Shown: piece after piece, positions 4,936 to 23,209 of the stretch
How the letters are laid out: every line of letters starts with the position of its first letter
How positions within the stretch are numbered: the stretch's first letter is position 1
From: Burkholderia sp. 9120
GTDB taxonomy: Bacteria > Pseudomonadota > Gammaproteobacteria > Burkholderiales > Burkholderiaceae
NCBI RefSeq assembly: GCF_000745015.1
Contig: NZ_JQNA01000002.1
Coordinates: 5,580,001-5,644,000 of the forward strand
Direction: 5' to 3'
DNA: 64,000 nucleotides
Position numbers and translations under genes: made by a program
Notes under the pieces: generated by a model
What the model was told of the DNA's origin: nothing
What the model saw: only the letters and a program-made list of their open reading frames with translations
The model's database searches: none

Positions 4936-4971
4936 GACGCGAACCCTGCAATGGAACGGCACAAAATGAAT

Positions 4972-7900
4972 TCACGCATCGAAGCTCTCCAGCAAATTAT
5001 CGAGATCGTCCTGATCGATCTGACTGCCGAAATCGGACGGCGTGTACTGCGGCGCGGCCCGATCGCACTGCGCGACCAGCAGGTCGAGCCGCGCGGCGAA
5101 CGCATCGACCAGCGCCTGCACACGTGGCGCGGCCACTTGCTCGCCGGCGAAGCGCCAACTGATCGCGAGCTTGCCGCGCGCGACCTTGGCGTTGATGTCG
5201 AGCGCCCACGTGAACGGCGCATCCGCCGCGACCGGCCAGCCCGCGTGTTCAGAGGCGAAGCGCCAGCGGCTCGCGGCGTCGAGGCTCGGATCGAACTGGC
5301 CGAGGTAGTTGAAGCTGATTCGCGGCGCCGGCAGCGCGGCCAGCGTCGCGCGAACCGTCTCGCTGCCGTGCGCGTTGAGCAGGCCCCAATGCAGACCGTT
5401 GTGCGGCACGGCGCGGCGGCGCTCTTTCGCATCGACCAGCGCGCGATGCGCGTCGTCGTGCGCATCGAGCCACAGCGGATAGCGCGTCGTGAACCAGCCG
5501 ACCGTGCGGCTCAGATCGAGTTCCTCGTCGCCGAGCGCCTCGCGGCCGTGTCCTTCGAGCGACACCAGCGCGCCGCGCGCGTCGCACCATTCGCGCAGCG
5601 CTTGCGCGAGCGCGGCCAGCAGCACTTCCTCGACGCTCGCGCGATAGGCCTTCGGCGCTGACTGCAACAGCCGGCGTGTGGCCGCTTCGTCGAGTTCGAG
5701 CGTGACCGCCTCGGTGTCGGCCATGCGCGGCAGCCGCGACGGCACCGCGAACGACGGGCTCGCGGTGTGCGGCATCTCCGCGTTGGCGAGCGCGTCGCGC
5801 CACCAGTTGGCTTCGTTGCCGACTTCGTCGCGTCGAGCATGCGCGATCGCGCGCTGCACCCATGCGCTCCACGGCAGATTCGCCGGCAACGTCGGCGTGC
5901 GCCGGGCGAGCGCCTGCTCATAGGCCGATTGCAATTCGTCGAGCAGCACGCGCCACGACACGCCATCCACGGCGAGATGGTGAACCGCGATCAGCAAACG
6001 CCCCTCGCCACGCAGACGGAAGTAACCCGCGCGGACCAGCGGTCCGTGGGCGATATCGAGTGTCGATTGCAGATGCTCGCCGGCTTGCGCGAGTGCGTCT
6101 TGCCAGGCCTCGTGCTCGCGCCAGTCGAACACCTGCAGCGCGCAGGCCGATGCTTCACCCACCTGCTGCTGCCACGCGCCTTCACTGCGGAAGAAACGCA
6201 GGCGCAAGGCGTCGTGAGCCGCGATCAGCGTATCGAGCGCCACGCGCAAAGCGGTTTCGTCGAGTTCGCCGCGAACCGCGAGCAGGGTCGACTGATTCCA
6301 GTGGTTCTCGCCGTGCGGGAACTGGTCGAAGAAAGCGCGCTGGATCGGCGTGAGACCAAGCGGTTCATGCGTCACGGCGAGCGCCGCGTGCGGCTCGGCG
6401 CTTTGCACGAGCGGAACGAGCGCGGCCACCGTGGGATGCTCGAACACCTGGCGCGTGCTGATCTTCAAACCGGCCTGACGCGCCCGCGCGACGATCTGCA
6501 AACTCAGAATCGAATCGCCGCCCGCTTCGAAGAAGTTGTCGGTAACGCCGAGGTCGTCGCGACCGAGTACCGCGCGCCAGATGTCGAGCAGGCTGCGTTC
6601 CGCCTCGCTCGACGCATCCACGCGTTCGCCGGTCAGCACCGGCGCGGGCAACGCGGCGCGGTCGAGTTTGCCGTTGCCCGTGAGCGGCAACGCGTCGAGC
6701 GCCACCAGCACGTGCGGCACCATGTGCGCGGGCAGCCGGCTAGCCAGACGCTCGCGCAACGCGGCAGCGTCGAACGTGGCGCCTGGCGTGCCGACCACAT
6801 AGGCGACCAGTTGCGCGCTGTCGTCGCGGACCAGCGCAACGGCGTCGCTGACGTCGCGATCGGCCAGCAGCGCGTGACGGACTTCGCCCAACTCGATGCG
6901 GAAGCCACGCAGCTTCACCTGCGCGTCGTCGCGGCCGAGGTAGTCGAAAGCGCCGTCGGCGAGCACGCGGGCGCGATCGCCGGAGCGATACAGCCGCGAG
7001 CCCGGCGCGCCGAGCGGATCGGGCACGAAGCGTTCGGCCGTGAGCGAGGGACGTCCCACATAGCCGCGCGCCACCCCGGCGCCGCCTACGCACAACTCGC
7101 CCGCGGCCGACATCTCGCCGGTCGCGTTGCGCACCGCGAGGCCCAGATCGGGCAACGGCGCACCGATAGGCGACTGCGCGTGCGAGCCCATTTTTGCGGC
7201 GGACGTATCGCCGAGATCGCTCGCGTTGAGCAGATACGTGGTCACGTGGACGGTGGTTTCGGTGATGCCGTACATGTTGACCAGTTGCAGGCCGGCCGGC
7301 GCACGCGTGCGATGCCAACGCGCCAGCGCCGCCGGTTCAAGTTTCTCGCCGCCGAAAATCACGAGGCGCAGCGAAGCGAGCGGCGTCGCGTCGACGTCAG
7401 GCGCAAGATCGTGCTGCATCAACGCGCCGAACGCGGAGGGCGTCTGATTCAGCACGCTCACCTGCTCATTGCGCAGCAACGCGTGAAATGCGGGGGTGTC
7501 GCGCGTGATCCAATACGGCACGACGACGAGCCGCGCGCCCGTGCACAGCGCACCGAACATCTCCCAGACGGAGAAGTCGAACGCGCTCGAATGGAACAGC
7601 GTCCAGACGTCGTCCGCATGAACCGGATGACGTTGCGCCGCCGCGTCGAGCAAGCGAGCGACGTTGCCGTGCGTGACGCCGACGCCCTTCGGCTGACCCG
7701 TCGAACCGGACGTGTAGATGATGTACGCCAGTTGTTCGGGGTGAGGCTGGGCAGCCTGGTTCGCGGGCGAAACCTCGTTCGCGGCCCGATCCGCCGTGCC
7801 TGAATTCAGCAACGACAGCACGTTGAGATCGCGCAACAGCGTTGCGTGACGCGCGGCGCTGTCGTCGTCGGCCAATACGGTCTGGATACCGGCGTCGGCG

Positions 7901-10900
7901 AGCAGATAGCTCAGGCGTTCATGCGGATAGTCGGGATCGAGCGGCACATACGCCGCGCCCGCCTTCAGCACGCCGAGCACACCCGCGACCAGCGCATTGC
8001 CGCGTTGCGCGCAGAGGCCGACACGCGTTTCCGCTCGCGCGCCTTGCGCCACCAGACGCGCGGCCAACGCATCCGACCAGCGGTCGAGTTCGCCATACGT
8101 GAGCTGGTCCGTGCCGCAGGTGAGCGCGCGAGCGTCCGGCCGGCTGCGAACCTGTTCGGCGAAACGGGCGAGCACGCTTTCAAACGCGAACGATGTACGC
8201 GGTTCGGCCCAGGTCGAGGCCGCCGTCGGCGCCGGTAACGCGAAGTTGCGCAGCGGCCCTTGCGCCCGCGCGGCGACGATCTGCGAAAGCAGCGCGACGT
8301 AACCCTCGGCGAGGGCGTCGAGTGTCGAACGGTCGAGGCGCGCGGCGTCGGCGGTCCAGCCGAGTTCGAGCGTATCGCCGACCAGCGCCGTCACCGTCAG
8401 CGGATAGTGGCTGCGCTCGCTGGCGTCCACCGCCATGATGCGCAGCGGTGCGTCGCCGGCACGCAAGGCGGCGCTCACTGGATAGTTTTCGAACACGAGC
8501 ACGCTGTCGAACAACGCGTCGCCACTGCGTCCCGACCACTGCTGCACGCGTGCGAGCGGCGTGGCCTCGTGTTCGCGCAGTGCGGCGTTCGCGCCTTGCA
8601 ATGCGCGCGCCCAGTCGCCGAATTCCATCGCGGACGGCACATCCGTCTCGAGCGGCAATGTGTTGATGAAGAGGCCCACCGTACGGCCGATCCCTTCGGG
8701 CGCAACGCCGCGTCCCGATACGGTCACGCCGAACGCGGCGCGTGAGCGGTCGGCGCGGCGCGCGAGCAGCAGCGCCCACGCAGCCTGCAACACGGTGTTG
8801 ACGGTGACGCGAGCGGAACGCGCCGTCTGCGCGAGTTGCGCGGTGAACGAGGTGTCGAGCACGCGGTGCAAGCGCAGCGCGGGCGTGGCGGCCGCGTGTG
8901 CGTTCGCGTTTGCATCTGCGTTTGCATCCGCATCGCTCGGCGAAGACAGCAACGCTGGCGCGCTATCCAGCAGCAATGCGGGCGGCTTCGTGTCGTCGCT
9001 CGCAAGATGCGCGCGCCACCATGCCTCGTCGCCGTGACGACCCTGCAGCCACGCGACGTAATCGCGCCATGCGGGTGCGCCGTCCCGCGGCTTCGTGTCC
9101 AGCGCCGTGCGTTGCCCAGCGCGTACGGTGTGGTAGTCCGCGAGCACTTCGTCGAGCAGTTGCGCGGCACTCCAGCCGTCGGTCAGCAAATGGTGGGTGG
9201 TCCACACGAGGTCGTGCGCGCCGTCGGGGCGTGCAAAGAGCGCGAGGCGCCAGAGCGGCGCGTGCGCGAGATCGAAAGGACGCGCGCGATCGGCGGCGAG
9301 CCAGGCGTCGAGGCGTGCGTCGTAGCCCGTTCCCTGCGCGTGCCAATCGTGGCTCTGCCAATCCAGTTCGAGCGTGCGCTGCACCACCTGCAACGGCACC
9401 CCGCCATGCGCCCATTCGAACGACACGCGCAGCACCTCATGACGCGCGAGCGCCGCTTCCCAGGCCGTGCGCAACGCGTCGCCGTCGAGCATACCCGCCA
9501 GCGTGAGGCGCTTCTGATTCACATAAACGCCCTGCGCCGCGCCTTCCAGCGCGTGGAACAACAGGCCTTGCTGAACCGGCGTCGCCGGGTAAAGATCGGC
9601 CACGTTCTGGAACGGCAACGCGAGCCGTGCCAGCGCAGCGCTGTCGAGTCCGGCAAGCGGGAAGTCTTCGGGCGTCGCGCCCGGTCCGGCTTGCGCGCAA
9701 TGCGCAATCAGTTCGCGCAGGCTCGCATTGAATCGATCCGCGAGCGCCTGAGCGCTGTCGTCGTCGAGCAGGCCGCCGGCGTAGCGCCACTGCACCCGCA
9801 ATTCACCGGCCACGACCATCGCGTTCAGGTCCAGCGCGTAGTGCAGCGCGCTGGCCGGATCGGTGCTGTCGTCGACCAGTTCCGGACGCAATGCGATACC
9901 CGCCGCGCCGGGCGTGCCGTCGAACTGGCCGAGATAGTTGAAGCTGACTTGCGGCGCGCTCAGGCTCTGCAGCGCGGTGGCCGCACGTTCCCAACCGGCG
10001 GCATGAGAGGCCGCGGCGCGCAGCAATGTCTTGGTGGCGCGCAGCGTCGCCATGCGGGCCTCGGCGGAATCCGCTTTGTCCGTTGCGTTGCTGGTCGCCT
10101 TGTCGGTTGCTTTCAGCCACAGCGGATAACGCTGCGTGAACCAGCCGACCGTTTGCGATACGTCCACGTCATCGCGATGCAGTGCACGGCCGTGACTTTC
10201 CATCGACACCAGCACGCCGCCCCACCCGTCGCATGAAAGCGCGAGCGCCGCGAGCAGCATGTCCTCGACGCTGGTGCGCAACGCATGCGCGGTGCCTTGC
10301 AGCAGGACGCGCGTCGCCTCGGCATCGAGCGTCGTGGTCAGCGTGCGCGCGTCGCACACGCGCTGGCCTTGCAAAGCCTCGGCAGGCCACAGCGGACGCG
10401 AAGCCTGCAAGGTCTCGCGCCACCACGCTATGTCGCTGGCGGCCTCCGTCGCATGCGCATTCACATTCGTAAGCGCCGACGGCGTCGACACGCGTGCGCT
10501 ATCCACCCACACGCTCCACGGCATCGACACGCGTTCGGCGAACGGCGCCTCACCGCGTGCCAGACGCTCGCACGCGAAACCGAGTTCGGCGATCAGCACA
10601 CGCCACGACACAGCGTCCACGATGAGGTGATGCGCGGCGAGCAGCAGACGGTCCGACGTCGACGCGGCGCGACGCACGAGCGCGGCGCCGAACAACGGTC
10701 CGTGCGAGAGATCGAAGCCGCGTTGCAGGCGCGCGGCGGCATCGGCCTGCGTCTGCTCCTGCGCGCTTGCATCGCCCGCCTCGACGACTTCGAAGCGCAC
10801 TTCGCCCGCGCCTTGCACCTGCTGATGCCAGGCGTGCGCCTCGTCGCGCACGAAGCGCAAGCGCAGCGCATCGTGACGTTCGACCAGCGCTCGCAACGCC

Positions 10901-13900
10901 GTGTGCAACAGTTTCGCGTCGAGCGTAGCGGGCACGTCCAGCCACACGGCCTGATTCCAGTGCGCCGGCGCCTGCGGATGACGCTCGAAGAAATGCCGCT
11001 GTGCGGCGGTCAGCGGCAGCGGCGCGCGACGCTCGTTCCACTGGCGCGTGCTGCCGGTCTGCTCGCGCATCAACGCCGCGAGTCGCGCGACGCTCGGCGC
11101 GTCGAACACTTCGCGCGGGGTGACCGCATAGCCGGCGTCGCGCAGACGCGCGACCACTTGCAGCGTGAGAATCGAGTCGCCGCCCGCTTCGAAGAAGTCG
11201 TCGGTGACGCCGAGGTCGTCGCGTTGCAGTACCTTGCGCCACACCGCCAGCACGATGCGTTCGCGCGCGTCGCGCGGTGCGACGCTGGCGGTCGGCGCGA
11301 CCGGCGCGGCCGGCAACGCGGCGCGGTCGAGTTTGCCGTTCGGCATCAACGGCAACGCGTCGAGACGCACGAACGCCGACGGAATCATATGCGCCGGCAG
11401 TTTTGCTTCGAGCGCCACGCGCAGCATGGCGGTCTCGTCCTGCGTATTGCCGGGAGCCGGCGCGGCTGTGTTCAGTTCGCCAACCCAATACGCGACGAGT
11501 CGCTTATTACCGCCATTGCCGCCGTCGTCGCGCGCCATCGCGAGCGCATCGCGCACGCCATCGCAACTGCGCAGCGCAGCTTCGATCTCGCCCGGTTCGA
11601 TACGGAAACCGCGCAGCTTGATCTGTTCGTCCAGACGCCCCAGAAAATGCGCCTCGCCCTCTGCACCGATGCGTCCAAGGTCGCCGCTGCGATACACGCG
11701 GCTACCCGGCGCACCGTGCGGATCGGGCACGAAGCGCTCGGCGGTCAGTGCCGGCCGGCCGAGATAACCGCGCGCGAGCGTGGTGCCGCCAATGCACAAC
11801 TCGCCCTGCCCGCCTTGCGGCAGCGAACCGCCATCCGGGTCGATCACGGCCAGCGTGCGCGACGCGAACGGCACGCCGATCGGTGCGGTGGCGTACGCGG
11901 CATCCGCCGCGACGGTCGCGCGATGCAAACAGGCCACCGTGGTTTCGGTCGGGCCATACAGGTTGTCGACGCGGATCGACGCGAGCGGCGAGCGCTGCCA
12001 CGCGGCGAGCGCATCGCCCGGCAACGCTTCGCCGCCGACCGTGATCTGCCGCAGCGACTCGAAGCGACGCTTCTCCGGTTCGCGCAACCATTGCTGCCAG
12101 AACGCGGTGGGAATGCGCGCGAAGCTCACGTGCTCGTCTTCGAGCGCGGCGTTGAGCGTCGCGAGGTCCCATTGCGCGGCGCCACGCATCAGCACGCGGC
12201 CGCCCTGCATCAGCGCGGGCAGCATTTCGTGCAAGGCGACGTCAAAGTTGATCGTCGAGATCTGCAACTGCGTATCGGTGTCGCGAATCCCGTAGGCGCG
12301 CACGAAGTCGCTCAGGTGGCGCCCAAGCGCCGCATGCGACACAGCCACGCCTTTCGGACGGCCGGTCGAACCCGACGTGTAGATCACGTACGCCAGCGCT
12401 TCAGGATGCACGGCGGTAACGAGCGGCGCGGCGTCTTCGGCGCTCACGTCCTCCACTTGCAGAATGCGTCGACCGTCGAGCAAGCTGCCCACGCGTTCGG
12501 CGCTGGCACGATCCACGAGAACGATTTCAATGCCCGCGTCGTCGAGCATCGTGGCGAGACGCGCGGCCGGATAATCGGCGTCGAGCGGCACGAAGGCGGC
12601 ACCGGCCTTGAGGATGCCGAGCAACGCGCACGGCAGCGCCACCGAGCGCGAGACACAAAGCCCCACGCGGACATCGGCGAGCGGCGCGGCATGCTCGCGC
12701 TGCAAACGGCGCGCGATCTGATTCGACCACCGTTCGAGCGAGCGGTAGTCGATCGCGTTGCCGTCGCACTTCACCGCCACGGCGGTAGGCCGCGTGCGCG
12801 CCTGCGCGGCAATCGCCTTCCAGACCGGTTCAAACGTCGACGCCCCGGCTTGTGCCGAGGCAGCGAAGGCCGTAAGCGCCGTCTGCCCCGTTCCGCGCGA
12901 CAGACGCAGGCCGGCGAGCGGCGTGGCGCCCGCGTCGGCGAATTGTTCGAGCACTTCGAGGTAATGCGCGGCCAGACGTTCGATCGTGGATTCGTCGAAG
13001 ACGTCGCAGGCGTAGTCGAACGCGAGTTCGAGTGCGCCGTTCTGTTCGGCCACGTTGAGCGCCAGATCGAACTGCGCGCCGCGCGTGAGGTTTTCGATGT
13101 CACGCAGGCGCAGATGGCGCGAATGCGCGAGCGCCGCGCGATCGATGCCCTCGTAGTTGAAGAGCGTCTGGAACAGCCCGCCGTGCGAGCCGTCGCGCGT
13201 GCCGCCCAGCGCGGCCACTACCCGCGCGAGCGGCGCCTGCTGATTGGCGAGCGCGTCGAGCAACACCGCGCGCGTTTGATCGAGCCACCCGGAACACGTC
13301 AGGCGACCGGAGATCGACACCGGCAGCGCCAGCGTGTTGACGAAATAGCCAAGCGCGCCGCGGCTCGCCGCGCTTTCGCGGCCGGCCACCGGCACGCCGA
13401 CGCGGAATTCTCGTTGGCCGCTGTAGCGATGCAACAACGCGGTCCACGCGGCGTACTGCACCATGAAGGGCGTCGCACGCGCCGCCTGGGCGAGTGCGTT
13501 CAGGCGTTTCACGAGACCCGCGGGTACGTGCAGCGAGACCCGCTCACCTACGTCGCTGCGTTGCGCGGCGCGCGGACGGTCCAATGGCAGCGCGAGTTCG
13601 GCAACCGGCGAGGCGAGCCGTGCACGCCACCACGCGAGCTGCGTATCGAGCGCCGCGCGATGGGCGGCGTCGTTCTCGCCGCGCGCGTAGGCGGCATATT
13701 GCAACGGCGCGGAGTCGAGCGCCGCCGACGGCACGCCGTCGGCGCGCGCGTCATACGCGGCACACCACTCGTTAAGCAGCAACGCGAGCGACTGCGCATC
13801 GGCGACGATGTGATGCACGTGCAGATGCACGACATGTTCGTCGTCGCTCACGCGACAGAGCGCGACGCGCAACAGCGGATCGTGCGCGAGATCGAACGGT

Positions 13901-16900
13901 TGCGCAGCAAGATCGCCGAGGAAGGCATAGAGGCGCGCGTCGCGCACGCCGCTGTCGAAGGACGAGAAGTCCTCGCGGCGCCATTGCGCGGCGCGCACGT
14001 CGTCGACGATCTGAGCCGGCACGCCGTCGGTCTCGACAAAGCGGGTACGCAGGATCGCGTGACGCTGCACGATATCGCCGAGCGCCGCTTCGAAAACGGC
14101 TTCGTCGAGCTTGCCGCCGATCCGTACGCTCGCCGAAATCGAATTCGCCGTGCCTTGCGGGTCGAGTTGCCAAAGCAGATAAAGACTCGTCTGGCCGGCA
14201 CTCAGCGGAGCCGGCTCATGGAGATCGACCGAGGCGAGGCGGTCCGCTTCGTCGGCGGATTGCGTAATCCGTTGAGCGACGTCGCGCAATTGCGCCACGC
14301 CCAAACGCGTCAACGCCGCCGCCTGGGCCGCGATAGTGGGATGTTCGAACACGAAGGCGATCGGCAACGCGGTGTCGAACCGCGCGTTGATCGCGGCGGC
14401 CAGTTGGCCCGCGACGATCGACTGACCGCCGCTCGCGAAAAAGTCGTCGTCGCGTTGCACGTGGCGCAGCGACGGCAACGCGTGCCACAACGCGGCAATG
14501 CGCTCTTCCAGCGCGTCGCCTTCGAACGGCGTCGCTGCTGTGTGTTGCGCGTGGCTCTCAAGTTCAGCGTTTGCGTCATGCACGTAACGCGTGACGCACG
14601 CGAGCGAGCCATCCGCGAAACCCGTCGCGCAAGCGGCGCGCCGCAGCTTCCCGCTCGACGTGCGCGGCAACGCGCCCGCTTCGAGCAACAGAACAGCGCC
14701 GACCGGCTCGCCGATCGCGGCGGCCACCGCGCGCCGGATCGCATCGATCACGGTCTGCTCTGCGCCGTCGCGCTGCGCGGCGCGCGCCAGTTCCGCCGCC
14801 ACGCCGATTGCTTCCGCGCCGTTCGCGTCACGCACGGCGAAGGCCGCGATCCGGCCGCTGCGCAGTCCATCGACCTGCGCGAGCGCGCGCTCGATATCCT
14901 GCGGATAGACGTTGCGACCGCGCAGGATGATCAGATCCTTCACGCGGCCGGTGACGAACAGGCGGCCGTTGTTGACGAAACCAAGGTCACCGGTGCGCAG
15001 CCAGCGCGTGCCGTCGACGGCATCGGGAACGAACGTGGCCGCGCTCGCCGCCGGCTTGTTCCAGTAGCCCTGCGCGATGCTCGGGCCGCCCAGATGAATT
15101 TCGCCGACGCGTCCATCCTGCAGCAGTTCGCCGGTTGCAGGGTCGACGATTCTCAGCGAATGATCCGGCGTGGAGCGGCCACAATCGACCAGCGGCGTCG
15201 CCGCGCGGTCTTCGCTTTCGGCCTTACGCCCCGCGCCTTGCGCAAGTGCATTCACCTCGAACAAAGGCGCGAGCGCGCCCTCGCCCGCCACACCGCCGCT
15301 CGCGAATAATGTCGCTTCGGCGAGCCCATAGCAGGGGTACAACGCGCCTTCACGCAAACCCGCCGACGAAGCCTTGCGCGCGAACGCGTCGAGCGTGGCG
15401 GCCTGAATCGGCTCGGCACCGCAGAAGGCTACGCGCCAGCATGAGAGATCGAGACCGTCGAACTGCTTGTCGCGCACACGGTCCGCGCACAACTGATACG
15501 CGAAATTCGGACCGCCGCTCACGGTCGCGCGATAACGCGAGATGGCGCGCAACCAGCGCGCCGGTTGTTCGAGGAAGTGCTGCGGATCGAGCAGCACGAG
15601 TTCGAAACCGAAATACAGCGGCAACATCAGCCCGCCGATCAAGCCCATGTCGTGATAGAGCGGCAACCAGCTCAGCATGACGTCGCGCGTCGCGTCGATC
15701 GACATGCCCGCGTGAATCGCGTGTTCGTTGGCGGCGATATTGGCGTGGCTGACCATCACGCCCTTCGGCTCCGAGGTCGAGCCCGACGTGTACTGCAGGA
15801 ACGCGAGCGCTTCGGCCTGCGGACGCTCGAAAGCGAGCGGCGCGGCGTGTTGCGTTTGCTCCGGCGTGAGCGTAATGCAGGCGGTGTCCTGCGAATCGCT
15901 GGTGAGCGCGCTCCACTGGACCTGCTGCTCCGCGCCGACAATCGCGATACGCGGCGAGCAATCCGCCTGCATCGCGCGCAAACGTTCGAGGTGTTGCGCA
16001 TGTTGCGGTTGCGGCGCATAGGCCGGCACCGCGACAAGGCCCGCATACAGGCACGCGAGAAAGTTGACGACGTAGTCGAGGCCGCTCGGCAGCAGGATCA
16101 TCACGCGTTCGCCCGGCGCGGCGTGCTCGCGCAACCCGGCGGCGGCGCGCTGCACCCGTTCGAGCAACTGCGTATAGCTGAGCGCGCGTTCGTCGGCGAC
16201 GCCGTCGGCCAGATAGCGCAGTGCGATCGCATGCGGACGGTAATACGCGTGGTCGACGAGTCGCGACACGATGTCGTCGTGAGTCGCCGGACCGTTGGCG
16301 CTCGCGTCATGCGCCGCGCGCGCGAGCCGCGACTTGCGGCTCAGGAACGGGCAGACGTCGCCGGCGCGCGCATTGTCGTCGCCGAGAAAGTACTGTTTCC
16401 ACTCCAGATTGCCGGGGTCGCCGTAGAAACCGAGGTCCGGGTGCGGATCGACCGCGTCCCACTTCAGCAGACGCTGGCGCACCTGATTGCGCGCTTCGCG
16501 GCCAATCACCTTGTTGGTGATGGTGTCGACGAACACCGCGCGCGGCTGGAACAGCAGCACCATGCCCGGCCCGAGATTGCGGCTATGACGCGTGGCGAAC
16601 GACGGTAACGCGCACACCACGAACATTTCGATACCGGCGTACGAGAACTCCCAGTCTTCGTGGGAGGGATCGGGATATGCATCGGCGGCGGCATGCGGGT
16701 CGACGTCGTGCAACGCCTGCAGGATGCGCCAGAACTGACGCTGATACTCGTCGTGCGACAGCGGTTCGGCATCGGGCTCGAAGAACACCGCGATATTGTT
16801 CTTGCGATAGTCGGGCATGGCCGCGAGTCGCGCGAAGGTTTCCATCGACCCCGCCAGATCCGTGGTGTCCTTGCCGTTCACGAACGCGTAAAACATCTCG

Positions 16901-17136
16901 CCGCGCTTCTCCGCGACGGTGCCGAAGAAGCACGGATAGGCCGGGTGCATCACCTGCTCGCGCAGCGTCGCGTAAGAGGACGCGAGCCACTCGGGCAGTT
17001 CCACCTGCGCGCCGATCGCCTCGCCGCGAATCACGCGGCTGGTCCAGTCGGCGGCATTGCAGGCGCTCGCGCGCGCTTCCAGCGACAACGGCAAAGCGGC
17101 ATCGCCCGGCGTGCCGTGAGATTGATTCGGTTCCAT
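4972..17136 (-). CDS. YqcI/YcgG domain-FAAL-NRPS fusion: lipopeptide assembly-line starter protein
   Basis: A 4,054-residue protein. Order seen: YqcI/YcgG-type domain (about 30-275; YPC at 67-69, CPF at 262-264); FAAL (about 285-850; YTSGST, GGPNFAY); acyl carrier (GGQS, Ser906); C1 (HHIVADA at 1108); A1 (pocket Asp1632); PCP1 (GGDS, Ser1988); E1 (HHLIVDA at 2169); C2 (HHLLTDG at 2648); A2 (pocket Asp3187); PCP2 (Ser3542); E2 (HHLAVDG at 3719). A2 reads D-F-W-N-I-G-M-V-H, the canonical threonine code. A1 reads roughly D-V-H-A-I-V-L-V-A and is unassigned. It should load a fatty acid as acyl-AMP and add a D-configured residue X and D-Thr. The start is the second of two adjacent ATGs behind an AGGGAG; in-frame codons extend to 17187. 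The role of the N-terminal oxygenase-like domain is inferred. Confidence 0.93.
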   Translation of the reverse strand: MEPNQSHGTPGDAALPLSLEARASACNAADWTSRVIRGEAIGAQVELPEWLASSYATLREQVMHPAYPCFFGTVAEKRGEMFYAFVNGKDTTDLAGSMETFARLAAMPDYRKNNIAVFFEPDAEPLSHDEYQRQFWRILQALHDVDPHAAADAYPDPSHEDWEFSYAGIEMFVVCALPSFATRHSRNLGPGMVLLFQPRAVFVDTITNKVIGREARNQVRQRLLKWDAVDPHPDLGFYGDPGNLEWKQYFLGDDNARAGDVCPFLSRKSRLARAAHDASANGPATHDDIVSRLVDHAYYRPHAIALRYLADGVADERALSYTQLLERVQRAAAGLREHAAPGERVMILLPSGLDYVVNFLACLYAGLVAVPAYAPQPQHAQHLERLRAMQADCSPRIAIVGAEQQVQWSALTSDSQDTACITLTPEQTQHAAPLAFERPQAEALAFLQYTSGSTSEPKGVMVSHANIAANEHAIHAGMSIDATRDVMLSWLPLYHDMGLIGGLMLPLYFGFELVLLDPQHFLEQPARWLRAISRYRATVSGGPNFAYQLCADRVRDKQFDGLDLSCWRVAFCGAEPIQAATLDAFARKASSAGLREGALYPCYGLAEATLFASGGVAGEGALAPLFEVNALAQGAGRKAESEDRAATPLVDCGRSTPDHSLRIVDPATGELLQDGRVGEIHLGGPSIAQGYWNKPAASAATFVPDAVDGTRWLRTGDLGFVNNGRLFVTGRVKDLIILRGRNVYPQDIERALAQVDGLRSGRIAAFAVRDANGAEAIGVAAELARAAQRDGAEQTVIDAIRRAVAAAIGEPVGAVLLLEAGALPRTSSGKLRRAACATGFADGSLACVTRYVHDANAELESHAQHTAATPFEGDALEERIAALWHALPSLRHVQRDDDFFASGGQSIVAGQLAAAINARFDTALPIAFVFEHPTIAAQAAALTRLGVAQLRDVAQRITQSADEADRLASVDLHEPAPLSAGQTSLYLLWQLDPQGTANSISASVRIGGKLDEAVFEAALGDIVQRHAILRTRFVETDGVPAQIVDDVRAAQWRREDFSSFDSGVRDARLYAFLGDLAAQPFDLAHDPLLRVALCRVSDDEHVVHLHVHHIVADAQSLALLLNEWCAAYDARADGVPSAALDSAPLQYAAYARGENDAAHRAALDTQLAWWRARLASPVAELALPLDRPRAAQRSDVGERVSLHVPAGLVKRLNALAQAARATPFMVQYAAWTALLHRYSGQREFRVGVPVAGRESAASRGALGYFVNTLALPVSISGRLTCSGWLDQTRAVLLDALANQQAPLARVVAALGGTRDGSHGGLFQTLFNYEGIDRAALAHSRHLRLRDIENLTRGAQFDLALNVAEQNGALELAFDYACDVFDESTIERLAAHYLEVLEQFADAGATPLAGLRLSRGTGQTALTAFAASAQAGASTFEPVWKAIAAQARTRPTAVAVKCDGNAIDYRSLERWSNQIARRLQREHAAPLADVRVGLCVSRSVALPCALLGILKAGAAFVPLDADYPAARLATMLDDAGIEIVLVDRASAERVGSLLDGRRILQVEDVSAEDAAPLVTAVHPEALAYVIYTSGSTGRPKGVAVSHAALGRHLSDFVRAYGIRDTDTQLQISTINFDVALHEMLPALMQGGRVLMRGAAQWDLATLNAALEDEHVSFARIPTAFWQQWLREPEKRRFESLRQITVGGEALPGDALAAWQRSPLASIRVDNLYGPTETTVACLHRATVAADAAYATAPIGVPFASRTLAVIDPDGGSLPQGGQGELCIGGTTLARGYLGRPALTAERFVPDPHGAPGSRVYRSGDLGRIGAEGEAHFLGRLDEQIKLRGFRIEPGEIEAALRSCDGVRDALAMARDDGGNGGNKRLVAYWVGELNTAAPAPGNTQDETAMLRVALEAKLPAHMIPSAFVRLDALPLMPNGKLDRAALPAAPVAPTASVAPRDARERIVLAVWRKVLQRDDLGVTDDFFEAGGDSILTLQVVARLRDAGYAVTPREVFDAPSVARLAALMREQTGSTRQWNERRAPLPLTAAQRHFFERHPQAPAHWNQAVWLDVPATLDAKLLHTALRALVERHDALRLRFVRDEAHAWHQQVQGAGEVRFEVVEAGDASAQEQTQADAAARLQRGFDLSHGPLFGAALVRRAASTSDRLLLAAHHLIVDAVSWRVLIAELGFACERLARGEAPFAERVSMPWSVWVDSARVSTPSALTNVNAHATEAASDIAWWRETLQASRPLWPAEALQGQRVCDARTLTTTLDAEATRVLLQGTAHALRTSVEDMLLAALALSCDGWGGVLVSMESHGRALHRDDVDVSQTVGWFTQRYPLWLKATDKATSNATDKADSAEARMATLRATKTLLRAAASHAAGWERAATALQSLSAPQVSFNYLGQFDGTPGAAGIALRPELVDDSTDPASALHYALDLNAMVVAGELRVQWRYAGGLLDDDSAQALADRFNASLRELIAHCAQAGPGATPEDFPLAGLDSAALARLALPFQNVADLYPATPVQQGLLFHALEGAAQGVYVNQKRLTLAGMLDGDALRTAWEAALARHEVLRVSFEWAHGGVPLQVVQRTLELDWQSHDWHAQGTGYDARLDAWLAADRARPFDLAHAPLWRLALFARPDGAHDLVWTTHHLLTDGWSAAQLLDEVLADYHTVRAGQRTALDTKPRDGAPAWRDYVAWLQGRHGDEAWWRAHLASDDTKPPALLLDSAPALLSSPSDADANADANANAHAAATPALRLHRVLDTSFTAQLAQTARSARVTVNTVLQAAWALLLARRADRSRAAFGVTVSGRGVAPEGIGRTVGLFINTLPLETDVPSAMEFGDWARALQGANAALREHEATPLARVQQWSGRSGDALFDSVLVFENYPVSAALRAGDAPLRIMAVDASERSHYPLTVTALVGDTLELGWTADAARLDRSTLDALAEGYVALLSQIVAARAQGPLRNFALPAPTAASTWAEPRTSFAFESVLARFAEQVRSRPDARALTCGTDQLTYGELDRWSDALAARLVAQGARAETRVGLCAQRGNALVAGVLGVLKAGAAYVPLDPDYPHERLSYLLADAGIQTVLADDDSAARHATLLRDLNVLSLLNSGTADRAANEVSPANQAAQPHPEQLAYIIYTSGSTGQPKGVGVTHGNVARLLDAAAQRHPVHADDVWTLFHSSAFDFSVWEMFGALCTGARLVVVPYWITRDTPAFHALLRNEQVSVLNQTPSAFGALMQHDLAPDVDATPLASLRLVIFGGEKLEPAALARWHRTRAPAGLQLVNMYGITETTVHVTTYLLNASDLGDTSAAKMGSHAQSPIGAPLPDLGLAVRNATGEMSAAGELCVGGAGVARGYVGRPSLTAERFVPDPLGAPGSRLYRSGDRARVLADGAFDYLGRDDAQVKLRGFRIELGEVRHALLADRDVSDAVALVRDDSAQLVAYVVGTPGATFDAAALRERLASRLPAHMVPHVLVALDALPLTGNGKLDRAALPAPVLTGERVDASSEAERSLLDIWRAVLGRDDLGVTDNFFEAGGDSILSLQIVARARQAGLKISTRQVFEHPTVAALVPLVQSAEPHAALAVTHEPLGLTPIQRAFFDQFPHGENHWNQSTLLAVRGELDETALRVALDTLIAAHDALRLRFFRSEGAWQQQVGEASACALQVFDWREHEAWQDALAQAGEHLQSTLDIAHGPLVRAGYFRLRGEGRLLIAVHHLAVDGVSWRVLLDELQSAYEQALARRTPTLPANLPWSAWVQRAIAHARRDEVGNEANWWRDALANAEMPHTASPSFAVPSRLPRMADTEAVTLELDEAATRRLLQSAPKAYRASVEEVLLAALAQALREWCDARGALVSLEGHGREALGDEELDLSRTVGWFTTRYPLWLDAHDDAHRALVDAKERRRAVPHNGLHWGLLNAHGSETVRATLAALPAPRISFNYLGQFDPSLDAASRWRFASEHAGWPVAADAPFTWALDINAKVARGKLAISWRFAGEQVAAPRVQALVDAFAARLDLLVAQCDRAAPQYTPSDFGSQIDQDDLDNLLESFDA

Positions 17137-17479
17137 CATGCTCCCTTGATTTCGTCGACCGGACGCGCGCCGACGCGCGCCCGCCATGCGTGCCGCTCGC
17201 GGCCACGCTGATTTAGCTGGGTTTTCGTGGGGAGAATCGCGACGCTTCGGGATGAGCGTCTTTATTCTGAAGACATGGACCGCCGCGCACGGCGGGTTTG
17301 TCTATCGACTGCGATGTTGCATGGGTACGGCTTCGCGGCGCTTGCCTGGTGGCGGCCGGTTAGTGGCCAATTAGCTGCCTGGTATTGGCCTGGTAGTGGT
17401 CTGGTAGTGCCGGGCTTCATTCAGTCCGGTTCGCGCGCGCCGCTGTTGCAGGGCTGCAGCAACGCGCGAACGGCTTACG
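17137..17479. other. 343-base gap between the cupin gene and the FAAL-NRPS, with a short tandem repeat
   Basis: No convincing gene on either strand. It holds a short array of an 11-base unit (annotated separately) and the AGGGAG ribosome-binding site of the NRPS at 17141-17146. The gap is unusually long for genes otherwise packed closely, so an internal promoter or a regulatory leader ahead of the NRPS is possible, but I see no recognisable promoter or intrinsic terminator. Confidence 0.5.
17377..17409. repeat. Three tandem copies of an 11-base GCCTGGTAgTG-like unit
   Basis: Three consecutive 11-mers (starting at 17377, 17388 and 17399) differ from one another by one or two bases. Related CTGGTGG/GTTAGTGG words lie just upstream, suggesting slipped-strand expansion in a non-coding gap. 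No function is evident. Confidence 0.6.
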
Positions 17480-18910
17480 TCAGGCCGGCTGCGGCGCGTC
17501 GAGTTCGACGACGAGTGCGTTGACCCAGTCGTCCGGGATGATCGGCTGGTGATACGTACACTCGCCGGACACCACCGTCGAGCCGTGCAAACGGCCGTCG
17601 GGAATCAGCACCATGTCGCCTTCATTCATCTTCAACTGCATGCCGACGTTGCCCCAGAACAGCATTTCGCCCGCTTCGATCGTGACGAGACGGTGATCGT
17701 TGTGAACGTGGGTCGTCGAACACATCTCGTGCGGCTCGACAAACGTCTCGCGATCGATGTCGGGAAACTCGGCATAGATGCGCGTGCTGATGCGCTGCGC
17801 GAATTCGCAGAAACGTTCGATCGCCGACAGCCAGCGCAACTGTTCGCCGAGATCCCAGCGCGCGCGCTCCGTCAGACGTTCGGCCGCCGCGAAGCCCTGC
17901 ATGCATTGTTCACGTGCGCTTTCGCCGTAGCGCGCTTCGAGTTCGCGCAGTGCGTCGGCGAAGCGGCGCGCGAGTTCGCGCTGGCGGTCCGGGCCGGCGT
18001 CGGGCGCGGCGCCACGATGCGTGAGATGCGGGCAGGCACGCGTCAACGCCGCGACAAACGCGAGTTGCTCGGCTTGCGCCGCGAACGCCGCACCGATCAG
18101 ACCGAAGGCGCGATCGGGACGGCGCGCAAGCGCATACAGCAGATTGGTTTTGGCGAGGCTGGTCGGCAGATAGAACTGCCAGTACGAATGCGCGTCGCGC
18201 GTGATCTCCGCCGCCGACGCCACGCGTGCGAGCAGGTCTTCGCTGCCGCCGTCGAGCTCGAGCGTGGGATGCAAGGCGGCCGGCAACGCGTCGAAGAAGC
18301 CGCTGGCCTGCGCGCGGCGCAGCGCGCGGCGCTTCGAGGGCAGCAAGGCCCAACGTTGCACGGCGATAAAGCGCAGACCGTCCTGCAGATAATCGTTGCG
18401 CACGAGGCGCGCGAAGTTGTCTTCCCAGAACGCCAGTTCGTCGCCGATCAGGCGCGTCAGGCGCGCCGCGGCGGCATCGCCTTGCGTGGCGGCGTCGGTG
18501 TCGCGGCTCAGGTAGTCGAATGCGTACGCTTCGAGGAACGGTGCGATCTGTGCGCCGAGCGCGCGCACTTCGTCGGCGTGATAGGCGCTGAAGTGCTGCC
18601 ACGCGTCCGCGTTCGTCTGCTGCGGCAGGTTCGCCACGTCGAGTTCATAGATGGACAGCAAGGTGCGATTCGACGCCAGCGAAGGCAGGCGGCTCACGTT
18701 GTGCGTGCGCACCGGCTTGCGGAACTTGAGAAACTCGAAGTCCTCGGGACGCAGCGGCCGGCGGTGATACTGGCCGTCGAGCACGAGTTCGTCCACGGTC
18801 GCGCTACGGAACGGCAGCGCGGCGGCAAAGCGCTTGATGAGGTCGACGTGGTGTTCGCTCTGTCCTTCGAACGGCTCGAAGTCGAACAAGGTTGAAAACG
18901 TTAGCGACAT
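17480..18910 (-). CDS. SznF-like protein with C-terminal cupin; candidate N-oxygenase of the siderophore pathway
   Basis: 476 residues, soluble, no signal peptide. The C-terminal part (about 385-470) is a cupin with metal-binding pattern H401-x-H403 and H442 (THVHND, then RLHGST). The middle (about 145-345) is alpha-helical. Length and the 41-residue spacing between first and third cupin histidines fit what I recall of SznF, the streptozotocin N-nitrosating enzyme (471 residues; helical diiron domain plus cupin). However, I cannot see the full Glu/His/Asp ligand set of a heme-oxygenase-like diiron site: E158/E163, H214, H241 and E281 are present but no HxxxDxxH. Its place between the thioesterase and the FAAL-NRPS suggests it makes or tailors an unusual residue, possibly the N-N bond of a diazeniumdiolate amino acid. 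The family call is moderately sure and the reaction is inferred. An N-terminal assembly role is the alternative. Confidence 0.75.
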   Translation of the reverse strand: MSLTFSTLFDFEPFEGQSEHHVDLIKRFAAALPFRSATVDELVLDGQYHRRPLRPEDFEFLKFRKPVRTHNVSRLPSLASNRTLLSIYELDVANLPQQTNADAWQHFSAYHADEVRALGAQIAPFLEAYAFDYLSRDTDAATQGDAAAARLTRLIGDELAFWEDNFARLVRNDYLQDGLRFIAVQRWALLPSKRRALRRAQASGFFDALPAALHPTLELDGGSEDLLARVASAAEITRDAHSYWQFYLPTSLAKTNLLYALARRPDRAFGLIGAAFAAQAEQLAFVAALTRACPHLTHRGAAPDAGPDRQRELARRFADALRELEARYGESAREQCMQGFAAAERLTERARWDLGEQLRWLSAIERFCEFAQRISTRIYAEFPDIDRETFVEPHEMCSTTHVHNDHRLVTIEAGEMLFWGNVGMQLKMNEGDMVLIPDGRLHGSTVVSGECTYHQPIIPDDWVNALVVELDAPQPA

Positions 18911-18988
18911 TTTCAGGAATCCGTTTTTAAGGAAATGAGGAGTGGCCGCTGGGCGCGCGCCGCTTTGATGCTGTGACGATCTGACGGT

Positions 18989-19759
18989 TTACTGTTCTAC
19001 CGCGACGGCAGTGAGCGTATTCAGCACCGCCGCGGCGTGCGCTTCGAGAAAGAAGTGGCCGCCCGCGAATTCATGACGGCCGAACTCGCCTTGCGTGCAC
19101 GCGGCCCACGCGTCGACATCGGCGGATTGCGCGGTGGCGCGATCGTCGCGGCCGGTAAAGACATCGATACGACATTCAAGCGGCAGACGCGGCGAACTCG
19201 CCCGACTCTGTTCCGTGTAGACCCCGCACAGATGAAAATCGGCGCGCAGCACCGGCAGCATGAAGTCGACGAAATCCGCGTCGGCCAGCAATTCAGTGGG
19301 CGTGCCGCCCAGTTCCGCGAGCTTCGCCACCATCGTCTCGCGAGGGCAGTCGAGCCAATGCGACTCGACCTTGCGGCGCGACGGCGCCACCGACGCCGAT
19401 GCGCCCAACCACAACGGCATGCGGCCATCTCGTTGCCGCAACGCGTGACACAACTCGAAGGCCACCAGCGCACCCATGCTGTGCCCGAAGACGGCGAACG
19501 GCGCGTCGCGATCGAGGCGCTGGCCGATGTCGTCGGCGAGTTCGGCGATCAGCGGGCGCCATTCGGTATGCACGGCTTGCGCGCGACGCGTGCCGTGGCC
19601 GGGCAGTTCCGCGGCAATCAGATTCACACCGTCCGGCAACAACGGTATCCATCGCCGATACAACGCCGCGCTGCCGCCCGCATGCGCGAAGCAGATCAGA
19701 TTGAGCGGCGTGGAAGTGGCGAAGGTCACGGTGCTGGCGGTGCTCACACTAGGCTGCAT
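18989..19759 (-). CDS. Type II thioesterase of the NRPS cluster (alpha/beta hydrolase)
   Basis: 256 residues with FAHAGGSA near the N terminus, the nucleophile motif GHSMG, an acidic residue in the FTGRDD segment and a C-terminal GGHFF histidine. That is the standard layout of editing thioesterases (GrsT/RifR group). These act in the cytoplasm and release misacylated or stalled groups from carrier-domain phosphopantetheine arms. It begins four bases after the MbtH stop codon, so the two are translationally close, and it ends 78 bases before the cupin gene. There is no signal peptide. Confident for the family; which carrier domains it serves is inferred from the neighbourhood. Confidence 0.93.
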   Translation of the reverse strand: MQPSVSTASTVTFATSTPLNLICFAHAGGSAALYRRWIPLLPDGVNLIAAELPGHGTRRAQAVHTEWRPLIAELADDIGQRLDRDAPFAVFGHSMGALVAFELCHALRQRDGRMPLWLGASASVAPSRRKVESHWLDCPRETMVAKLAELGGTPTELLADADFVDFMLPVLRADFHLCGVYTEQSRASSPRLPLECRIDVFTGRDDRATAQSADVDAWAACTQGEFGRHEFAGGHFFLEAHAAAVLNTLTAVAVEQ

Positions 19760-19763
19760 ACGT

Positions 19764-19997
19764 TCAGTTCGGCGCGGAACCTTGTGCGGAGGCGCTCTCT
19801 TCCATCGCCTTGCGCAAGCTCAGCGGACGCATATCGGTCCACACCTCGTCGATCCACGCGAGGCAGTCTTCCTTCTTGCCGGACTTGCCGGCTTCACGCC
19901 AACCGGCGGGAATGGCCTTGTAGTCAGGCCAGATCGAGTACTGCTCTTCGTGATTCACCACTACGTGGAAATTCGTGTTCTCGTCGCCCCAACTCAT
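19764..19997 (-). CDS. MbtH-like protein (adenylation-domain partner)
   Basis: 77 residues with the family signature: [10 protein letters not shown] near the N terminus, PAGW, then a tryptophan-containing C-terminal half ([11 protein letters not shown]). MbtH-like proteins bind NRPS adenylation domains and raise their solubility and activity. It is the first gene of the leftward operon. A GGAG Shine-Dalgarno lies about 8 bases before the ATG, and a Fur box sits about 105 bases upstream, so the operon should be repressed when iron is sufficient. The family is certain; the partner A domains are presumably those of the two downstream NRPSs. Confidence 0.97.
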
Positions 19998-20101
19998 GAA
20001 TGCGCTCCGCTGCGTTAATTTGATTGGCTATGCGAATGAAAGACAGAAGTCCGCCTGGAGTGATCTCCATAAACGGTCCCGGCTCGCGAAACTCAGTTTT
20101 C

Positions 20102-20120
20102 GCGAATGACAATCATTCCC
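20102..20120. promoter_or_regulatory. Fur box upstream of the MbtH/NRPS operon
   Basis: GCGAATGACAATCATTCCC matches the 19-base Fur consensus GATAATGATAATCATTATC at 14 of 19 positions, including the whole central AATCATT block. It lies about 105 bases upstream of the MbtH start, an appropriate place for repression of this operon by Fe-Fur. I could not identify a clear -35/-10 pair, so an alternative sigma factor is possible. Confidence 0.8.
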
Positions 20121-23078: not shown

Positions 23079-23190
23079 CCAGTGCCTCCCTAGGCTGGCA
23101 CGCCGATGCGTTGCGGCAGGCAACGAGCCGCCGCAATGCACCGAGCTTTATCACGGCGGCTGAGTTTAAAGCACAGGGCATCGACACCGC

Positions 23191-23209
23191 AAGAATGCGA
23201 ATCATTTTC
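23191..23209. promoter_or_regulatory. Fur box upstream of the acylase gene
   Basis: AAGAATGCGAATCATTTTC matches the Fur consensus at 14 of 19 positions, with the core AATCATT intact. It lies about 113 bases upstream of the acylase ATG, almost the same distance as the box ahead of MbtH, suggesting co-regulation by iron. Confidence 0.8.

Follow-up and report, generated by a model that had tools for sequence, protein, structure and literature searches.

A predicted graminine siderophore cluster with a GrbE-FAAL fusion and an adjoining acylase in Burkholderia sp. 9120

We analyzed a 64,000-nucleotide stretch of the Burkholderia sp. 9120 genome (here the window; genome positions 5580001-5644000 of 8.46 Mb) and read it together with the sequence to its left, 104 kb in all (genome 5540001-5644000). 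The left part of the window carries nonribosomal peptide synthetase (NRPS) genes that, judged from sequence, almost certainly belong to the graminine (Gra) class. As a whole, the locus very likely serves the iron-repressed synthesis and uptake of a C-diazeniumdiolate (graminine) siderophore. A preliminary description of the window had named this class as a possibility, which is supported by homologues of GrbD and GrbE, two graminine codes, a TonB receptor, and a terminal thioesterase. The leftward run it described, of MbtH, a type II thioesterase (TEII), an SznF-like cupin protein, and a fatty acyl-AMP ligase (FAAL)-NRPS with a YqcI/YcgG domain, is present in all its parts. The cluster extends leftward beyond the window to about genome 5550900, and the receptor and terminal thioesterase, for which it had proposed a check on that side, both lie there. 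By GrbD, the nearest named relative of this soil Paraburkholderia is Paraburkholderia sp. BL21I4N1 (98% identity). The features are listed below in window positions unless marked as genome positions; NRPS domains are condensation (C), adenylation (A), carrier (T), epimerization (E), and thioesterase (TE).

19764-19997, reverse strand: MbtH-like protein (P0004; PF03621, E value 2.4e-23)
18989-19759, reverse strand: type II thioesterase (P0003; PF00975, E value 1.1e-45)
17480-18910, reverse strand: GrbD homologue (P0002), SznF-like scaffold with C-terminal cupin (SznF 6m9r profile match)
4972-17187, reverse strand: NRPS 1 (P0001, 4071 residues), GrbE-FAAL-T / C-A(Gra)-T-E / C-A(Thr)-T-E (Pfam, domain scan, A-domain codes)
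16345-16962, reverse strand: GrbE (YqcI/YcgG) domain of NRPS 1, predicted arginine N-oxygenase (PF08892, E value 2.2e-61, 214.9 bits)
14578-16275, reverse strand: FAAL-like domain of NRPS 1 (NCBIfam fatty-acid-AMP ligase models, below cut-off)
11314-12819, reverse strand: first A domain of NRPS 1, DVHRTGLVAK, graminine (code assigned in PMC10391617)
6667-8163, reverse strand: second A domain of NRPS 1, DFWNIGMVHK, Thr (calibrated on the P. graminis gramibactin cluster)
genome 5577244-5584962 (window part 1-4962), reverse strand: NRPS 2 (P0006), C-A(Asp)-T-E / C-A(Asp), frameshift before the last T
genome 5560025-5576794, reverse strand: NRPS 3 with terminal thioesterase, left of the window
genome 5559056-5559973, divergent: AraC-type regulator with a cupin sensor
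genome 5556550-5558769, reverse strand: TonB siderophore receptor (TIGR01783, 384 bits against a cut-off of 223.5)
genome 5555649-5556542, reverse strand: ATP-binding cassette (ABC) ATPase, left of the receptor
genome 5554654-5555664, reverse strand: periplasmic binding protein, left of the window
genome 5552646-5554868, reverse strand: FhuB-type permease (NF007866, 748 bits against a cut-off of 554)
genome 5550900-5552609, reverse strand: cyclic-peptide exporter (TIGR01194, 562 bits against a cut-off of 286)
20553-23141, reverse strand: PvdQ-like (Ntn-hydrolase) acylase (PF01804, E value 1.2e-114)
20102-20120, unstranded: Fur-like box before MbtH (14/19 to consensus)
23191-23209, unstranded: Fur-like box before the acylase (14/19 to consensus)

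The class assignment is carried by the two tailoring enzymes. Pfam Cupin_2 matches the SznF-like protein at just E 2.2e-5, under its cut-off, but a profile of this protein and 14 relatives matches SznF (PDB 6m9r) at E 1.7e-44 over nearly the full SznF length. The cupin residues His401, His403, and His442 are all kept in 61 of 61 GrbD rows. A histidine-rich SznF stretch, TEHIHIDQHH, which we take to hold the diiron ligands, aligns with a histidine-free stretch of GrbD, so the diiron site looks lost in GrbD. Loss of this site has been reported for ChmM and its group of SznF homologues (PMC10849742). The YqcI/YcgG domain falls in the GrbE set, its best solved structure being AglA (PDB 9ubb, E 4.6e-33). 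A candidate heme cysteine (Cys86 in P0001 numbering) is found in 59/59 rows and was equated with Cys47 of ChmN by its place in the domain rather than by alignment. Arginine is the source of graminine (PMC9679993). ChmN is a YqcI/YcgG protein that has a heme cysteine and adds one and then two hydroxyl groups to arginine, and its partner ChmM was inactive when purified (PMC10849742).

The preliminary description had proposed both proteins as graminine enzymes with some reserve. GrbE-set membership, the conserved residues, and 66-67% identity of the cupin protein to P. graminis GrbD support that proposal, and the doubt over the YqcI/YcgG domain is largely settled by the work on its relative ChmN (PMC10849742). 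With this GrbD identity and the GrbE domain match, the tailoring proteins do not show the lack of similarity to GrbD and GrbE that had been named as grounds for rejection. Within the genus of the window, GrbD homologues were detected in 40 of 144 genomes. On plasmids, GrbD was matched over most of its length in Tistrella alone (one of four records), while the GrbE domain retrieved 48 records, every one below 60% identity and with Tistrella the best.

Iron control was assessed with a simple match count against a 19-position Fur consensus. The 104 kb read contains exactly three sites at 14/19 and none higher, and they lie just upstream of MbtH, the acylase, and the TonB receptor; in five first-order Markov sequences of the same length, 3 such sites turned up, a chance level of 0.6 per 104 kb. 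The site at 20102-20120 corresponds to the operon Fur box of the preliminary description. In BL21I4N1 the acylase and MbtH sites score 13 each and the receptor site 14, and in Caballeronia sordidicola the receptor site scores 14 and the MbtH site just 12. The locus probably combines siderophore transport genes with iron control. A product that chelates a metal other than iron, or that acts as a nitric oxide (NO) delivery signal, is a very improbable alternative. Chalkophomycin, which contains graminine, binds copper (PMC10849742), and graminine peptides set NO free in plant roots (PMC6771848); against this, the Fur-like boxes, the TonB siderophore receptor, and the FhuB-type uptake genes favor iron, and the Burkholderiaceae graminine peptides characterized in PMC6771848 are siderophores.

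For the peptide itself, we read the specificity codes of eight A domains. NRPS 1 has DVHRTGLVAK and DFWNIGMVHK in its first and second modules, each C-A-T-E. NRPS 2 has DLTKVGHVGK in a C-A-T-E module and then DLTKVGHVG, with the last letter past a frame break and the T domain in another frame. NRPS 3 reads C-A(DVEDSGQISK)-T-E, C-A(DVWNIAMVHK)-T, C-A(DVHRTGLVAK)-T-E, C-A(DFWNIGMVHK)-T-TE. In Table 1 of PMC10391617, DVHRTGLVAK stands for Gra, DLTKVGHVGK for beta-hydroxy-Asp (OH-Asp), DVWNVAMVHK for Ser, and DAEDTGRISK for OH-Orn. The exact graminine code occurs in two of the eight domains when a Gra domain is the alignment reference; its fourth letter reads A with a Thr reference and R with a Gra reference in these two, the P. 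graminis Gra domains having the Thr-reference reading only. A control scan of the P. graminis cluster gave Asp-Thr-Thr-Gra-Gly-Gra, where the Gly code is an assignment we presume. These residues agree with the six that make up gramibactin (two Gra, Gly, two Thr, and OH-Asp; PMC9679993), which calibrates the Thr code. The Thr codes of NRPS 1 and the Asp codes of NRPS 2 agree with the earlier remark that such codes fit the graminine class. With E domains after modules 1, 2, 3, 5, and 7, the predicted order is D-Gra, D-allo-Thr, D-Asp, Asp, D-Orn-like, Ser, D-Gra, Thr.

BL21I4N1 and C. sordidicola LMG 22029 have the same eight-module order, the latter with DVEDSGQLHK as its residue-5 code (two positions differ). 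This order is absent from nine other clusters, those of P. graminis, P. bryophila, Tistrella, S171, P. aspalathi, 4M9327F10, P. eburnea, Pandoraea capi, and Pollutimonas, of which Tistrella, 4M9327F10, and Pollutimonas were covered in part or with gaps. The Ax-1719 cluster stops at a contig edge that cuts its module order. As a separate observation, the C domains of NRPS 3 and NRPS 2 share 709 bases at 99.2% identity (genome 5571433-5572141 and 5579517-5580225), the second copy extending into window positions 1-225. The corresponding open reading frame (ORF) stretches share 764 bases at 97.3% in BL21I4N1 and 1232 bases at 99.1% in C. sordidicola, which suggests repeated gene conversion between these domains. 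The P. aspalathi cluster has three graminine-type codes, the last DVHRTGLIAK, with a GrbE-FAAL fusion and an order of approximately Gra-Gly-Asp-Gly-Thr-Gly-Gra-Gra.

Our most specific proposal, distinctly unlikely to hold in every part, is a lipid-free octapeptide finished by the acylase and by a hydroxylase that is encoded elsewhere in the genome and replaces a clustered one. Four of its side chains would each bind iron in a bidentate way, those of two D-graminines and of two beta-hydroxy-aspartates (one D-threo). If true, this octapeptide would have more donor groups than gramibactin, which has three. Observations on residue 5, the NRPS 2 frame, the Asp hydroxylase, and the acylase weigh against our preferred reading of the locus and are given here with the rivals on which they bear; our confidence in those rivals overlaps with that in the preferred reading, so the grades are not shares of a whole. 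Residue 5 would be Orn-like by resemblance of its code alone, which agrees at 7 of 10 positions with DAEDTGRISK of tistrellabactin. No full-length Orn N-hydroxylase was seen in the genome, and a hydroxamate is therefore unlikely; the Orn/Lys N-oxygenase family gave seven partial and weak matches, the best at E 4.1e-10 over about 115 of 339 positions.

The NRPS 2 ORF of this strain stops early, inside its last A domain, and the remainder of this domain, together with the carrier domain, is encoded in a different frame (ORF at genome 5576841-5577473), so the strain may not make the full product. Decay of the cluster is a reading we hold as possible but somewhat doubtful: the frameshift would remove the last adenylation subdomain and the carrier, no complete siderophore would be made, and the receptor would perhaps be kept for the siderophores of others, as in the likely Bordetella "cheater" retaining transport genes only that is described in PMC12971057. 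However, no further broken gene was seen in the cluster, an indel in one assembly may be a sequencing error, and NRPS 2 is intact in BL21I4N1 (a 2690-residue frame with both carrier domains, in DNA 94-95% identical here). It is intact in C. sordidicola as well (2694 residues). The lack of a clustered hydroxylase is by itself no sign of decay, since BL21I4N1 is also without it. That the frameshift is an assembly error and the strain makes the full product is, in our judgment, an even call.

The aspartate beta-hydroxylase for which the preliminary description had proposed a check left of the window is not in the cluster, and both TauD matches of the genome lie elsewhere. A TauD gene stands between TEII and grbD in Ax-1719, C. 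sordidicola, P. bryophila, and P. sediminicola and adjoins grbD in Tistrella; the TEII-grbD gap in the window is just 78 bases, and the 90 kb read around the BL21I4N1 cluster has no TauD match. The candidate is an unlinked homologue about 165 kb right of the acylase (genome 5767351-5768337). Both Asp residues may be left unhydroxylated, with iron bound by two graminines and carboxylates and another role for the unlinked gene, which is only 55% identical to the clustered Ax-1719 enzyme and has no NRPS gene within approximately 17-22 kb. We regard this as unlikely for several reasons. The gene is preceded by overlapping Fur-like sites of 16/19 and 15/19, the best box seen and the same in its BL21I4N1 counterpart, whereas none of 40 Markov sequences of 40 kb reached 15/19 (sites at 13/19 number 34 in those 40). 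It groups with the Tistrella MobD piece at an SH-aLRT of 92 in a quick tree of 23 rows, in which 6 of 20 inner forks are open and long-branch warnings were given. The only Asp codes in the NRPS loci of the genome are those of this cluster. Finally, P. graminis makes OH-Asp with no TauD match in the 78 kb read around grbD, and it has an unlinked homologue (52%) with a 13/19 site, a score within chance. We consider it fairly likely that at least one Asp is hydroxylated.

The sole other condensation-domain locus of the genome (6090358-6098856) is a 2833-residue frame with two A domains, whose codes DAWLLGNVVK and DAWFLGNVVK we take to be Leu-like; it has no Asp code. Service of the unlinked TauD enzyme to a hydroxamate siderophore such as ornibactin was considered and rejected on this locus and on the partial, weak Orn/Lys N-oxygenase matches. 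A phosphopantetheinyl transferase lies about 4 kb beyond the unlinked gene (genome 5772129-5772830), and two adjacent ORFs have no Pfam match. In Pandoraea capi, a TauD-type hydroxylase match sits at the C-terminal end of a 9469-residue NRPS frame, and an Asp module follows in the next frame.

The FAAL-like domain and a T domain precede the first C domain of NRPS 1, which predicts fatty-acid loading on the first carrier; the best stretches of the FAAL models fall at about residues 305-860, all below the NCBIfam cut-offs. The term "lipopeptide" in the preliminary description holds for this loading step, and it may describe the precursor only, because a PvdQ-like acylase sits beside the operon behind a Fur-like box. 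PvdQ strips the acyl chain from the pyoverdine precursor in the periplasm (PMC6206403). The acylase adjoins the operon and is the only PF01804 match in the genome; its start is about 50 bases from the 14/19 site, it bears a lipobox-like signal (judged by eye), and its Ser283 aligns with the first residue of solved beta chains. Against the NCBIfam PvdQ model NF051460, it scores 534 bits, below the equivalog cut-off of 950, and in the PDB it is nearer to 5c9i, presumably the acyl-homoserine lactone/penicillin acylase MacQ (809 bits), than to PvdQ (378 bits). It may still work like PvdQ.

In BL21I4N1, Ax-1719, and C. sordidicola, homologues of the acylase precede MbtH; those of P. bryophila (46%) and Tistrella (35%) adjoin the receptor. 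Linkage was counted in 50 grbD genomes, namely 49 of the 67 loci of the GrbD search and the genome of the window, with distances taken from two tables; short contigs, fragments, and second loci (L017, L018, L028, L038, L040, L049, L059, and L062) and the distant L063-L072 were left out. In 24 genomes the acylase shares a contig with grbD and lies no more than 90 kb from it, in 13 it is on another contig (several with grbD near a contig end), and in 13 there was no match at E 1e-30. These last 13 include all 10 gramibactin-clade genomes of the GrbD tree (L013, L020-L023, L025-L027, L029, and L031; the other three are L046, L056, and L061). Because the 10 form one clade, this absence may go back to a single event. 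The known gramibactin producers within the clade are P. graminis and P. caledonica.

Retention of the lipid is a serious rival, to which we give slightly less than even credence. The mature product would be an amphiphilic lipopeptide like gramibactin, the megapolibactins, and plantaribactin, and the acylase would recycle it later or act on acyl-homoserine lactones. The FAAL-like loading domain and the higher score to 5c9i fit this rival. So does the box, which is not conserved throughout: it is 13/19 before the BL21I4N1 acylase, and no site of at least 12/19 precedes that of C. sordidicola. Moreover, an acylase is also linked to the 4M9327F10 cluster, whose order of Asp-Ser-Ser-X...Gra is plantaribactin-like, and plantaribactin still carried its fatty acid when isolated (PMC6771848), so an acylase is no proof of a lipid-free product. 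Neither B. plantarii nor P. megapolitana appears by title among the GrbD-search loci or among the named minority of the 120 acylase homologues listed; across 299 genomes of the family, a B. plantarii GrbD was matched at 75% identity at best. Against retention are the position of the sole acylase directly upstream of the operon behind its 14/19 box and its linkage to grbD in 24 of 50 genomes, yet in none of the 10 of the gramibactin clade. For gramibactin B of that clade, the linear-form m/z of 853.3898 (PMC6771848) equals, by arithmetic, six residues plus octanoyl, and the C8:0 chain of gramibactin is given as a hypothesis in PMC11837247. Tistrellabactins had no fatty acyl group detected although the Ntn hydrolase MobM and a CAL/FAAL domain are encoded (PMC10391617). 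The acylase makes a lipid-free form plausible, not certain, and we see the chances of a mature product without lipid as balanced. Among the matches listed, our literature searches on acylases gave no title on graminine clusters.

A GrbE domain lies within reach at 58 of the 67 GrbD-search loci, 40 times stand-alone and 18 times in an ORF that continues for at least 900 residues. Ten of these 18 have a FAAL match above 200 bits in the same ORF and eight do not. Fused forms occur in Alphaproteobacteria and several Burkholderiaceae lineages, and the GrbE-FAAL fusion requires at least four changes, whether gains or losses, on a quick GrbD tree of 56 rows. Here and in P. aspalathi, FAAL is followed by a Gra module as the first for an amino acid. 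We rejected the idea that the fusion supplies this following module with graminine, as in Tistrella the module takes D-Gln (PMC10391617) and in P. bryophila a residue other than Gra. Novelty of the YqcI/YcgG-NRPS fusion was likewise discarded, such fusions being mentioned in PMC6771848 and described for MobF in PMC10391617.

Taken together, we propose the following pathway. The GrbE domain, a putative heme N-oxygenase at the front of NRPS 1, would hydroxylate the guanidine of L-arginine, and the GrbD cupin would, by homology, rearrange the hydroxylated arginine to L-graminine; in the literature covered here, the GrbD-type step has not been reconstituted. The FAAL domain would load a fatty acid onto the first carrier, the three NRPSs would join the eight residues in the order predicted from codes and E domains, and the terminal thioesterase would free the finished chain. 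The unlinked TauD-type enzyme behind its Fur-like box may beta-hydroxylate one or both Asp residues. The cyclic-peptide-type exporter would carry the acyl peptide out of the cytoplasm, and the periplasmic acylase may take off the lipid, at once or later. The ferric complex would re-enter through the TonB receptor and the FhuB-type ABC system. Graminine products are iron binders that also give off NO in plant roots (PMC6771848), and their clusters are rare, below 2% of NRP-metallophore regions in representative genomes (PMC12971057). The present cluster adds a predicted eight-residue member to the class and makes two ideas testable: that a PvdQ-like acylase decides between lipid-bearing and lipid-free graminine siderophores and that an Asp hydroxylase acts from outside the cluster.

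Two neighbors lie outside this pathway. The AraC-type regulator between the receptor and NRPS 3 is kept in BL21I4N1 (94%) and C. sordidicola (77%) and could be a sensor of the ferric siderophore. A DinB and FGE-sulfatase protein adjoins the exporter (genome 5549459-5550847); it is related to OvoA, SenA, and EgtB and scores under the NCBIfam cut-off of each.

Among known systems, the GrbD-GrbE pair is an antiSMASH detection rule (PMC12971057). The gramibactin cluster (grb) of P. graminis shares GrbD, GrbE, a FAAL-like domain, MbtH, TEII, and Gra, Thr, and Asp modules with two Gra, and it too has no TauD match in the 78 kb read around grbD. It differs in its six modules and stand-alone GrbE, and the P. 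graminis genome has no acylase match at E 1e-30; with the order Asp-Thr-Thr-Gra-Gly-Gra and a GrbE that is not fused, gramibactin itself was rejected as the product here. The tistrellabactin cluster (mob) of Tistrella mobilis pTM2 has a GrbD homologue (50% identity), a GrbE fused before a FAAL-NRPS (MobF), Gra and Ser codes, a TbetaHAsp homologue (MobD), and an acylase homologue (35%, presumably MobM, its frame broken by a stop in this record) beside the TonB receptor. Unlike the present cluster, it has one Gra module, Gln/Asn residues, hydroxamate enzymes MobI/MobJ, seven A domains in another order, and its hydroxylase inside the cluster (PMC10391617). The plantaribactin and megapolibactin clusters share GrbD/GrbE, Gra, OH-Asp, and an acylated N terminus and differ in residue composition (Orn, Gln, Ser or Gly, Ser, Thr, Ala; PMC6771848). 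Closest are BL21I4N1, Burkholderia sp. Ax-1719, and C. sordidicola LMG 22029, with GrbD identities of 98, 88-89, and 85%, the acylase before MbtH, and the GrbE-FAAL fusion. BL21I4N1 and C. sordidicola share cluster neighbors with the window and differ from it in their intact NRPS 2, and Ax-1719 and C. sordidicola differ in having the Asp hydroxylase between TEII and grbD. Our search of open-licence papers gave, among the matches listed, none on this cluster or its product. The class and its GrbE-NRPS fusions are already known (PMC6771848, PMC10391617), while the predicted eight-residue sequence and some of the finishing steps look new.

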